In this document: piece by piece, positions 17,720 through 30,186 of the stretch
Numbering within the stretch: position 1 is the first letter of the stretch
Layout: every line of letters begins with the position of its first letter
Source of the DNA: a virus
IMG/VR virus record: IMGVR_UViG_3300025127_000085
Location: 1-39,880 of that record
Strand: one strand, 5' to 3'
Length of the DNA: 39,880 nt
Translations under genes and position numbers: made by a program
Notes under the pieces: model-generated
Told to the model about the DNA's origin: nothing
The model's input: only the letters and a program-made list of their open reading frames with translations
Database searches by the model: none

Positions 17720-17886
17720 AGTTCACCTCTATCTCTATATTCTTTTACTTCGTTCAACAAGATCTTTAGCTTGTCTGCTTTGTACTGCTCACCATCCCAC
17801 TCAAGATCGTCAATGTCTCTTTGCAAATCTTTGATGTAGGATTCAACAGCCACAACTTTTTCATCTTCGTACTTCAAGTGTCTCAT
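17701..17886 (-). CDS. Small coiled-coil-like protein
   Basis: 61 residues from the ATG at 17884-17886, which overlaps the upstream stop (TAATG); an in-frame extension upstream would overlap that gene by 37 bases. Helical, with YIKDLQRDIDDLEWDGEQY and KLKILLNEVKEY, and ending ELWYPMF. Function unknown. Confidence 0.65.
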   Translation of the reverse strand: MRHLKYEDEKVVAVESYIKDLQRDIDDLEWDGEQYKADKLKILLNEVKEYRDRGELWYPMF

Positions 17887-18116
17887 TAGTGATATACTAC
17901 CTCCCCTTTTTGATCTATCCATTTCTTAAAATCTTTTGTACCGTAACCCTTCTCTTTCATGAAGTCTTGCATATCAAGTATACAATTCAACAGAGTAGAG
18001 TTTTGTTCCATAATAACTTCAACAATATCTCTGTCCTCTTTTTCTAATTTGTCGAGGAGAGATCCAACTTCAAACGTTGTTAGATACAACAAATCATCTT
18101 CCTCATCATGATCCAT
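17886..18116 (-). CDS. Small acidic protein, first gene after the 18.1-kb promoter gap
   Basis: 76 residues, very acidic at the N-terminus (MDHDEEDDLLYL), then helical (LLDKLEKEDRDIVEVIMEQ). AAGGA lies ten bases before the ATG. It is the first gene downstream of the candidate minus-strand promoter at 18192-18219 and may therefore be strongly expressed. Acidic DNA-mimic roles are possible but not shown. Confidence 0.7.
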   Translation of the reverse strand: MDHDEEDDLLYLTTFEVGSLLDKLEKEDRDIVEVIMEQNSTLLNCILDMQDFMKEKGYGTKDFKKWIDQKGEVVYH

Positions 18117-23559: not shown

Positions 23560-23587
23560 TTTTATTTATCCTTTTCATTTTTCCATA

Positions 23588-23658
23588 GCTATCGCTGTCG
23601 AGGCTGTTAGTCCTCACGCAAATAAAGAGCGAATTTGAGGACTGGCTGTCAAGATAGC
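23588..23658 (-). promoter_or_regulatory. Structured leader of the first minus-strand gene
   Basis: Nested inverted repeats upstream of the 23559 start: GCTATC (23588-23593) with GATAGC (23653-23658), and AGTCCTCA (23609-23616) with TGAGGACT (23636-23643), extended by CGC/GCG (23617-23619 / 23629-23631) with a four-base bulge and an A-rich loop. No U tract follows, so this is more likely a 5' stabiliser, attenuator or regulatory leader than a terminator. Confidence 0.55.
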
Positions 23659-23828
23659 CAACAAGCCAAAACGCAAAAAAGTTTAAAAATAGAGTAATTA
23701 TTTTAAAAAGTGTTACTGAATTACCACGAACAAAAACAGAACATCAGAATTTTTTGCAGCTGGCTCTGCACTTGCAAAATGATTGCCGCAATGCAAAAAC
23801 GAATCAGTGCAATGCAGCATAAATATAA

Positions 23829-23840
23829 TTGTGATCACAA
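23829..23840. promoter_or_regulatory. Family A palindrome, copy 1
   Basis: TTGTGATCACAA, a perfect 12-bp palindrome with core TGTGATCACA. One of three copies in the control region (others at 23884 and 24175). Operator-like; resembles half of a CRP-type site but is shorter. Confidence 0.6.
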
Positions 23841-23883
23841 GTGTGTAGGTGTACTGTTTAAGTTTATAGTTGCTTCCTATATT

Positions 23884-23893
23884 TGTGATCACA
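23884..23893. promoter_or_regulatory. Family A palindrome, copy 2
   Basis: TGTGATCACA, 54 bases from copy 1 centre to centre. A plus-strand TATAAT begins two bases after it (23896-23901), so a bound protein would cover a -10 box, though no good -35 box lies at standard spacing. Confidence 0.55.
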
Positions 23894-23901
23894 GCTATAA
23901 T

Positions 23902-24012
23902 AGTTTAATACTGAACGATATTCTTTAAGAAATAGTTTAAAGTTAAACTAAATTTCCCCTATTACAGTTTAATACTAAACTAAAATACTAAAAGTAGTTT
24001 AATGTTAAACTA
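23902..24012. repeat. Family B operator array, four palindromes at 30-32 bp
   Basis: Copies: imperfect AGTTTAATACTGAACG (23902-23917); TAGTTTAAAGTTAAACTA (23933-23950); AGTTTAATACTAAACT (23966-23981); TAGTTTAATGTTAAACTA (23995-24012). Centres are 32, 32 and 30 bp apart, close to three helical turns, so dimers bound to all four would lie on one face of the DNA. Likely a repressor or origin-binding array. Confidence 0.75.
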
Positions 24013-24139
24013 TCTCCAGCATATTGTGCCTGTATTCCTAACGTATACAGCATATAGTATAAGGGTAGGCATGGTACACGTGGGGGGTGTACGTTATATA
24101 TGTATGCTCAATGACAGAGAGGGGTATTTTAGGTCTGTT

Positions 24140-24171
24140 AACCACATTGTTAATCAAGTGGTTTACACTTG
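24140..24171. repeat. Alternative hairpins upstream of the 24.19-kb promoter
   Basis: AACCAC (24140-24145) can pair with GTGGTT (24158-24163), while CAAGTG (24155-24160) can pair with CACTTG (24166-24171). The two are mutually exclusive. They precede the candidate promoter at 24169-24196. Could be protein sites or cruciforms. Confidence 0.4.
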
Positions 24172-24196
24172 AGTTGTGATCACATTTAGATATAAC
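24169..24196 (+). promoter_or_regulatory. Plus-strand promoter with family A operator in its spacer
   Basis: TTGAGT (24169-24174), 16-base spacer, TATAAC (24191-24196). The third TGTGATCACA copy (24175-24184) follows the -35 box directly, inside the spacer. Predicted start of transcription falls at about 24203, at the ATG of the 36-residue frame, so the message could be leaderless. Confidence 0.55.
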
Positions 24197-24203
24197 TAAA
24201 GAT

Positions 24204-24314
24204 ATGAAACTATATAAGGTAAAGAACAAGTATATCCTCCTGGATGACAAGGGGTTTGTTCTAATTATAACTAGATATAAAAGTATATGCTTACATCTTA
24301 TGGGTGTGACATAG
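24204..24314 (+). CDS. Possible 36-residue protein, maybe leaderless
   Basis: MKLYKVKNKYILLDDKGFVL, then an Ile/Arg/Cys-containing tail ending LMGVT. No ribosome site stands out, but a promoter ends eight bases upstream. The palindrome TGACATAGTGTCA (24307-24319) covers its stop. The strand-turn-strand look of YKVKNKYILLDDKGFVLII is protein-like. It could be a small regulator of the control region or a remnant of a longer gene. Confidence 0.35.
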   Translation: MKLYKVKNKYILLDDKGFVLIITRYKSICLHLMGVT

Positions 24315-24360
24315 TGTCATGGCGTGTATTATCCTGTTGTTTTATACTTGAAGCGTGTAT

Positions 24361-24396
24361 AACTATTAGTATATACTTATAGTAATACTTAAGGTA
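24361..24396. repeat. Family C iteron-like triplet 1
   Basis: AACTATTAGTA (24361-24371), TACTTATAGTA (24374-24384), TACTTAAGGTA (24386-24396). Consensus TACTNNNAGTA with centres 13 and 12 bp apart. The same 13/12 spacing recurs in triplet 2. Confidence 0.65.
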
Positions 24397-24412
24397 TCAT
24401 TACCTTTATTTT
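24391..24412 (+). terminator. Weak terminator-like hairpin
   Basis: AAGGTA (24391-24396), loop TCAT, TACCTT (24401-24406), then TATTTTTTAT. The 6-bp stem has only two G-C pairs. It could end a short transcript from the 24.19-kb promoter. It overlaps a family C motif, so it may only be part of that array. Confidence 0.35.
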
Positions 24413-24426
24413 TTATACCTTTATTT

Positions 24427-24442
24427 ATACTAATATTAGTAT
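24427..24442. repeat. 16-bp perfect palindrome between the iteron triplets
   Basis: ATACTAATATTAGTAT, centred 13.5 bp before the first motif of triplet 2. It contains the TACT...AGTA half sites of family C with a longer spacer (TACTAATATTAGTA). Confidence 0.6.
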
Positions 24443-24478
24443 TACTAACAGTAACTACTTAAAGTATTACTTACAGTA
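24443..24478. repeat. Family C iteron-like triplet 2
   Basis: TACTAACAGTA (24443-24453), TACTTAAAGTA (24456-24466), TACTTACAGTA (24468-24478); centres 13 and 12 bp apart, exactly as in triplet 1, which starts 82 bp upstream. Consensus TACTTANAGTA. A further copy lies in the promoter at 24544. Confidence 0.7.
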
Positions 24479-24530
24479 CCCCATATTCTGCTTTTGTTGT
24501 CCCTTTTTTGGAAAAAAAGATAAAAGTATG

Positions 24531-24558
24531 TTGACATAGGTACTACTTTAAGTACAAC
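24531..24558 (+). promoter_or_regulatory. Main plus-strand promoter with family C operator
   Basis: TTGACA (24531-24536), 16-base spacer, TACAAC (24553-24558) followed by TACCG. A family C palindrome, TACTTTAAGTA (24544-24554), sits in the spacer and touches the -10 box. Upstream, CCCTTTTTTGGAAAAAAAG (from 24511) is an A/T tract at UP-element distance. Predicted start near 24565, only about seven bases before the 24572 ATG. Confidence 0.7.
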
Positions 24559-24571
24559 TACCGAAATCCAA

Positions 24572-24829
24572 ATGAGTAAAAACAGAATTAAGTACTTCGA
24601 GTCTGACTCAGTGCTAGAAGAGTTCTACAACGCACTAGCCAACCAAGACGAAAAGAAGCTCAGAAGAGTACACATCCCCAGATCTGATGTCTTTTATGTA
24701 CGCAGAGCGTATTTTGAAAGTACAGGCAACTGGGAATCCCTAGATAGAATAGAAAGATCAATGTACCTGGAGGGTATGTTGTCCAGATTTGACGTTCTAG
24801 ACCCCGAAAGAAAAAGAGACTGGGAATAA
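24572..24829 (+). CDS. Conserved small phage protein, first rightward gene
   Basis: 85 residues, highly charged: RIKYFESDSVLEEFYNAL, KKLRRVHIPRSDVFYVRRAY, then SLDRIERSMYLEGMLSRFDV and DPERKRDWE. I recall the last block from marine phages, function unknown. No ribosome site is visible before the ATG, and the predicted leader is about seven bases, so translation may be leaderless-like. First gene of the lysis and morphogenesis operon. Confidence 0.75.
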   Translation: MSKNRIKYFESDSVLEEFYNALANQDEKKLRRVHIPRSDVFYVRRAYFESTGNWESLDRIERSMYLEGMLSRFDVLDPERKRDWE

Positions 24830-30135: not shown

Positions 30136-30186
30136 AAAGCACGATCACTTCTTTAATGATACTAGGAGTACTTTGGGAGGAGGCTC

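Follow-up and report, generated by a model that had tools for sequence, protein, structure and literature searches.

Clustered palindromic sites between the divergent gene arms of CRP-9-like roseophages are probable operators of a phage-encoded regulator

Two clusters of 11-bp palindromic sites, set around an AT-rich spacer, lie between the divergent gene arms of a CRP-9-like roseophage and its relatives, and we consider it likely that they are cooperative operators through which a phage-encoded factor, probably a repressor, regulates rightward transcription. The DNA analysed is the IMG/VR virus record IMGVR_UViG_3300025127_000085 (39,880 bases, hereafter the window), which is a fragment of such a phage. 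HMO-2011-type and related phages are described as dominant and widespread in the sea (PMC9038755; PMC8528129). The word 'promoter' is absent from the main text of three genome papers on these phages (PMC9038755, PMC8528129 and PMC6918029), and no description of these arrays was found in the literature searched, including by term searches within the same three papers.

Results

Two clusters of short palindromes lie between divergent gene arms

The arrays fall within an intergenic stretch of about 1 kb (23560-24571), flanked on one side by a leftward arm encoding a DnaB/Toprim primase-helicase, a family A polymerase and endonuclease I, and on the other by a rightward arm encoding an endolysin, a spanin-like gene and others. 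The counterpart of this stretch forms the end of the deposited record in CRP-9, CRP-13, CRP-1 and CRP-2. A sequence-only reading of the window had described two triplets of one motif with the same 13/12-bp internal spacing, and the triplets are indeed there, with site starts at 24361, 24374 and 24386 (array A) and at 24443, 24456 and 24468 (array B). All three sites of array B are exact copies of the motif (TACTAACAGTA, 24443-24453; TACTTAAAGTA, 24456-24466; TACTTACAGTA, 24468-24478), whilst array A has an exact TACTNNNAGTA only at its middle site (TACTTATAGTA, 24374-24384), its outer sites AACTATTAGTA (24361-24371) and TACTTAAGGTA (24386-24396) each carrying one mismatch. The clusters are separated by an AT-rich spacer (24397-24427, 0.84 AT), and this arrangement of clusters plus spacer recurs in relatives. 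The 16-bp perfect palindrome around which the triplets were said to be placed is present (ATACTAATATTAGTAT, 24427-24442), but it adjoins array B and is not midway between the two. A seventh copy had been assigned to the main promoter, and TACTTTAAGTA (24544-24554) does lie inside the predicted rightward promoter described below. An outlying exact site, TACTAAAAGTA, occupies 23986-23996, and isolated exact copies of TACTNNNAGTA start at 30160 and 30567.

Within 23560-24571 we counted six exact TACTNNNAGTA sites against a mean of 0.1 in 1000 dinucleotide shuffles, three triplets with 11-14 bp steps against none, and two triplets of the same spacing against none. As 0 of the 1000 shuffles matched the exact-site, triplet or same-spacing-triplet counts, and likewise 0 of 1000 when the local AT-rich sequence (24341-24571) was shuffled alone, base composition cannot explain the sites. 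Across the whole window there are eight exact copies, compared to 1.57 (sd 1.25, maximum 5) in 100 whole-window shuffles, and TACT is the most frequent arm among palindromes of the 4-n3-4 form in the intergenic stretch, with six occurrences against two for the next. The sites are thus real and far beyond chance.

The sites are conserved, and their sequence changes between clades

Relatives were collected using the first right-arm gene (24572-24829, plus strand, 85 aa) as a handle, so that its presence in the loci is by construction. Searches of viral contigs returned 439 relatives with the window query, 255 with the CRP-1 version and 483 with the CRP-2 version, the best 80 of each being used; these make up clade A (window/CRP-9), clade B (CRP-1) and clade C (CRP-2), with 42 of 81 (window included), 36 of 78 and 27 of 79 regions, respectively, being non-redundant. 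L163 and L166 (clade B) and L215 (clade C), having almost no upstream sequence, were left out.

When all short palindromes in the 380 bp preceding the 85-aa gene were counted without guidance, TACT-n3-AGTA ranked first among four-base arms in clade A (128 against 3.9 expected, 42 non-redundant regions) and CACT-n3-AGTG in clade B (41 against 0.5, 36 regions), whilst clade C displays a different palindrome, CATT-n0-AATG (28 against 0.2, 27 regions). Clades A and B have an ACT...AGT core in common. At the level of loci, at least two exact TACT sites are found in 40/49 of clade A, 0/42 of clade B and 2/32 of clade C. One or more exact CACT sites are carried by 0/49, 35/42 and 0/32 of these loci, respectively. 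Nine of the 49 clade-A loci hold fewer than two exact TACT sites and seven of the 42 clade-B loci no exact CACT site; two clade-C loci (L190 and L193) have two or more TACT sites, so the match between motif and clade is imperfect. In HMO-2011, a phage of a SAR116 bacterium, CACTTAAGTG sites can be seen by eye at the corresponding place.

The viral contigs were also scanned for three ACTnnnAGT sites at 12-13 bp steps. Among the first 120 matches listed, 31 have the 85-aa gene, 77-263 bp away in 30 cases and 5.4 kb away in one. Of the other 89 matches listed, 71 lie within open frames of at least 150 codons and are coding repeats, and among the remaining 18, three (L306, L317 and L323) resemble the same phage group, L323 being assigned to it by its contig, which is also the source of L055. 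As a separate observation, the viral contigs of L312, L353 and L322 carry non-identical ACTnnnAGT runs outside long open frames, in stretches lacking the 85-aa gene.

Layout is retained whilst the exact spacing is not

Layout was scanned in 39 clade-A rows; L078, L080 and L087 were not placed, their main rightward promoter being unrecognisable. Steps between neighbouring sites peak at 12 bp (40 cases) and 13 bp (25), with lesser classes at 9 bp (14) and at 11, 14 and 16 bp (10 each). The 13/12 spacing is found in both clusters only in the window and its closest relatives, L008, L010 and L015; in other rows 16/12 and 12 alone are common, 11 and further values also occurring. Identical spacing is therefore not a conserved property, and where the sequence-only reading had let its case depend on relatives sharing the spacing, it is the array itself, and not the exact spacing, that they share. 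Its broader proposal of a control element beside the divergent gene arms is supported, two clusters of repeats about one turn apart being kept in relatives.

Across 43 modules (34 main and 9 left-arm, the latter described below) two clusters enclose an AT-rich spacer, with a start-to-start distance of 36-74 bp that falls within 40-60 bp in 39 of the 43; the mean AT content of the spacer is 0.845, compared to 0.639 further upstream. In clade B, a looser pattern (CA[CT]n5[AG]TG) gives steps peaking at 14 bp and again at 74-75 bp. What persists is the pairing of clusters on either side of an AT-rich spacer, with a site-to-site step near 12-13 bp, whilst the sequence of the unit and the step drift between lineages. 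A layout that is kept while the site sequence changes points to gene control and not to a replication origin.

Two clusters of repeats about one turn apart would also be compatible with a bridging regulator, or with the handcuffing repressor that had been envisaged, but spacer lengths in the 43 modules show no significant helical phasing (best R 0.27, equalled in 299 of 2000 random sets), which leaves looping or handcuffing without positive support.

The clusters are placed over and upstream of predicted promoters

The arrays lie between two predicted promoters on the plus strand: P1 (TTGAAG-16-TATATA, 24348-24375), identified by eye and the weaker prediction, and P2 (TTGACA-16-TACAAC, 24531-24558), the predicted main promoter of the rightward, late arm. 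A P2-like TTGAC...TA[CTA]AACTA is present in 39 of 42 non-redundant clade-A regions. A scan with consensus promoters listed four promoter-like sites, compared to 5.0 in shuffles; P2 falls outside its rule and was not listed, and the P1 -35 was listed with an 18-nt spacer.

The spacer, -10 and presumed start of P1 all lie under array A, a position in which a repressor would be expected. Array B lies 85-110 bp before the -10 of P2, and a role for it in activation may be considered. The single site TACTTTAAGTA is in the P2 spacer and overlaps the first two bases of the P2 -10; a site starts exactly 9 bp before TAnAACTA in 18 of the 39 clade-A rows (nine exact, nine with one mismatch) and is missing at that exact position in the other 21. 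We posit that a phage-encoded dimer would occupy the 11-bp palindromic sites side by side, probably cooperatively, the sites being spaced by one helix turn or slightly more, and that this binding would mainly repress or time rightward transcription.

Separately, CRP-1 and CRP-2 (L006 and L007) and the B and C regions viewed (every second region) have TTGACA directly before the ATG of the 85-aa gene homologue, and in these the promoter-like TTGACA...GTAnAACTA runs into the first codons of that homologue; its transcripts would lack the annotated start codon. For CRP-9 gp73 (MW514246.1, L003), homology begins at 54851, whereas the annotated start lies 51 bases further upstream, at 54902, and includes the P2 -35; this start is probably mis-annotated.

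Several relatives have a second copy of the layout ahead of a left-arm operon

Scanning 19 whole records for the exact pattern gave matches in 14. In eight of the 19 (G003, G004, G005, G006, G007, G012, G013 and CRP-9) there is a match in the left arm, about 3.6-6.3 kb from the main region, with three of these distances reckoned across record ends; a left-arm copy in CRP-13 was found by a one-mismatch scan. By eye, the same order is seen in the left-arm stretches examined: a TTGAAA-type element, two to three sites, an AT-rich spacer, at least one site and the operon start. The one-mismatch scan revealed no cluster at the counterpart place in the window, and no module was present in the left-arm stretches examined of G001, G002 and G008 (L379, L381 and L380), the first two of which have a polymerase 98% identical to that of the window. 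An acidic gene in the window's left arm (17886-18116) has relatives at one locus alone.

Under the operator explanation, the same factor would control the left-arm operon of several relatives through this module. A bolder form, which we put forward tentatively, is that the twin clusters are a control module of a sort new to phages, used at two places per genome and bound by an undescribed DNA-binding family, of which the 85-aa protein could be an example, with a site preference rewritten between sister clades. If true, each lineage would have its own control circuit, deaf to that of the other.

The arrays do not follow the replication module

The sequence-only reading had likened the triplets to replication-origin iterons. 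The arrays would then be bound by a phage initiator, with the AT-rich spacer acting as unwinding element, possibly opened by transcription from P1. Repeat clusters do flank a spacer richer in AT than the sequence further upstream, the genome encodes a family A polymerase as well as a primase-helicase-like protein, and replication of T7 starts at a promoter plus an AT-rich stretch. The cumulative GC skew has its minimum at 23-24 kb, but this turn proves nothing, because it coincides with the change of gene direction.

Cobaviruses have the replication-gene type of CRP-9 (PMC8528129), and this is where the origin explanation is weakened: CRP-4, CRP-5 and P12053L all lack a cluster (no three ACTnnnAGT within 60 bp in 3/3), the intergenic stretch of CRP-5 holding two isolated exact sites. 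Conversely, among 20 clade-A IMG/VR records, 12 have the polymerase type of the window, as do CRP-9 and CRP-13, and none matches the CRP-1 polymerase; L043, L065, L067 and L073 matched neither the window nor the CRP-1 polymerase and were counted on neither side. For L046, L053, L063 and L084 the match to the window polymerase is limited to some 230 residues and 23-27% identity; despite this distant polymerase, the four carry three or four exact TACT sites. The presence of arrays with a distant polymerase and their absence from cobaviruses indicate that they travel with the right-arm control region and not with one replication-gene type.

The left-arm module of the same layout also argues against an origin, and no Rep-type initiator was recognised among the 30 window proteins scanned with Pfam. 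Iterons, as in the origins of theta plasmids, are direct repeats of about 17-22 bp beside a rep gene, longer than the units here and not palindromes. The arrays resemble theta-plasmid origins in having repeat clusters beside an AT-rich stretch, but differ in that their units are 11-bp palindromes at steps of mostly 12-13 bp, and in that no rep gene is present among the proteins scanned. At least as strong a candidate for the origin is a G-rich block that leads into a TGTATGTACA-like stretch and is recognisable by eye both in this group and in cobaviruses. Taken together, these results make an iteron origin unlikely.

In the window, a G-rich block with a TGTACGTTATATATGTATG-like stretch after it occupies 24063-24106, with by-eye counterparts in CRP-1, CRP-2, HMO-2011, CRP-207 and cobaviruses; it is a candidate for an alternative origin or for leftward control.

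A phage factor is favoured over a host regulator

We also considered that a host regulator binds the sites and is exploited by the phage. The ACT...AGT core common to clades A and B and the close relationship of the recorded hosts are consistent with this, but CRP-9, CRP-13, CRP-1 and CRP-2 share one recorded host strain, FZCC0023, and CRP-1 and CRP-2 are without TACT arrays; different arrays in phages of the same host strain favour a phage factor. Moreover, the exact triple was found in 14 stretches of a cellular genome collection, none alphaproteobacterial by record title and all tandem or simple repeats by eye, although single host sites would still be compatible with this result. We regard a host regulator as very improbable.

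As for the phage factor that would act on the operators, no known DNA-binding transcription-factor family was recognised among the 30 window proteins scanned with Pfam. The best-placed candidate is the product of the first right-arm gene, which belongs to no known family, because the gene is directly downstream of the arrays and has relatives in all three clades and in HMO-2011; no cobavirus is among the 10 records matched by either 85-aa query. Of the 60 largest families of open reading frames in the gene's first 300 bases and the 5 kb to its left, apart from the 85-aa family, itself present by construction, none exceeds 18 of 38 clade-A loci. The 85-aa protein is predicted to have four helices (pLDDT 86), and searches of that model for similar folds gave no convincing match, the lowest E value being 2.5 and the highest VIA Z score 2.5 (46 residues, rmsd 4.5). 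The core motif of the protein is nearly invariant across clades A, B and C, which have differing sites, and this is awkward if the protein sets specificity, so we propose it as binder only with reserve. One contig, IMGVR_UViG_3300030095_000192 (L114 and L240; 58.6 kb), carries both a B-type and a C-type 85-aa gene, which may reflect duplication or chimeric assembly.

A 36-aa open reading frame just left of the arrays (24204-24314, plus strand), predicted to fold as beta-beta-beta-alpha, was also considered as binder, because three-stranded sheets can bind DNA. It was rejected: other phages of the group carry its homologues at different positions, and none turned up in the 31 kb covered of CRP-13, which does have arrays. 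The model is confident (pLDDT 93.6), its best VIA match being a designed protein (Z 3.8, rmsd 2.6, 36 aligned), and Pfam gave weak matches only (best E 0.023). The family it belongs to (about 36-58 aa; window, L107, L127, L173 and others) is predicted to be beta-beta-beta-alpha. Members were found in 21 of 41 non-redundant clade-A loci, 15 of which encode them next to the arrays on the plus strand and six on the minus strand; the family also occurs in the window, CRP-9 (unannotated, at L003:7143-7265), CRP-1 and CRP-2.

RNA, recombination and partition roles find little in their favour

With the clusters placed between P1 and P2, most of the repeats would be included in a transcript from P1 and could in principle act in its leader RNA as hairpins or by antitermination or attenuation. 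The stretch 24376-24530 folds at z = -1.76 (9/200 shuffles being as good), and between clades T-A gives way to C-G in a compensatory manner. A palindrome read as DNA would be just as likely to change symmetrically, however; a four-pair stem with a three-base loop is weak, of the 128 cells at the four arm pairs that are not Watson-Crick only 13 are G-U wobbles, the P2 site overlaps the promoter core, and Rfam gave one sub-threshold, chance-level match, outside the arrays. The few wobbles and the modest z lend little support to an RNA role, which we judge highly improbable.

A site for recombination or partition, such as an RDF/Xis array or par centromere, is hardly credible. The likeness to the Apl sites of phage 186 (PMC7498355) lies in repeats spaced by roughly a helical turn close to early promoters, but the units here are palindromic and not direct repeats, and their steps are mostly 12-13 bp and not 10-11 bp. 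The 30 window proteins scanned include no integrase or Par protein. An integrase is annotated in both CRP-1 and CRP-2 but not in the portions of CRP-9 and CRP-13 examined, and the window is a fragment.

Relation to known operator systems

Tandem cooperative operators are a known kind of element; what is new here is the layout, its duplication and the clade-wise change of sequence. Lambda OR/OL exemplify the tandem palindromic operators of temperate phages, with unequal sites overlapping promoters between divergent arms. The arrays are alike in having several short, unequal palindromic sites over predicted promoters between divergent arms, with cooperative use likely, and differ in their 11-bp units, 12-13 bp steps, AT-rich spacer and second copy in several genomes, and in that no CI/Cro-like gene was recognised among the proteins scanned. 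The operators of ribbon-helix-helix proteins such as Arc and MetJ are short palindromic boxes on which dimers sit side by side about one turn apart; the boxes and their spacing are similar here, but no ribbon-helix-helix family is present among the 30 window proteins scanned. In phage 186, the operators for Apl lie between pR and pL; they are described as direct repeats at 10-11 bp, presumably bound by one monomer each (PMC7498355), and share with the arrays a position between early promoters and a spacing of about one turn; besides the palindromic units and longer steps noted above, the window differs in lacking an integrase among its scanned proteins.

If the operator explanation is right, the arrays offer a precise bait for finding the putative regulator, and the clade-to-clade change of site within a kept layout would be a natural experiment in the evolution of phage switches.

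Other motifs in the intergenic stretch

Several further motifs are present in the same stretch. A GACA-n3-TGTC palindrome (24308-24318) is enriched in clade A (15 against 0.2 expected). To the left of the main arrays, AGTTTAA-n2-TTAAACT palindromes at 23934-23949 and 23996-24011 make up a second type of array, and GTTTAA-n2-TTAAAC is found in 23/33 A, 0/32 B and 0/19 C regions. TGTGATCACA sites occur at 23830, 23884 and 24175 in the window, and the motif is unchanged across clades (13/33 A, 17/32 B and 6/19 C regions); being the same in A, B and C, unlike the arrays, it may be the site of a host regulator. An inverted repeat, GTTAACCAC...GTGGTTTACA, spans 24137-24167, and GTTAACCA is shared by 21/33 A, 31/32 B and 1/19 C regions.
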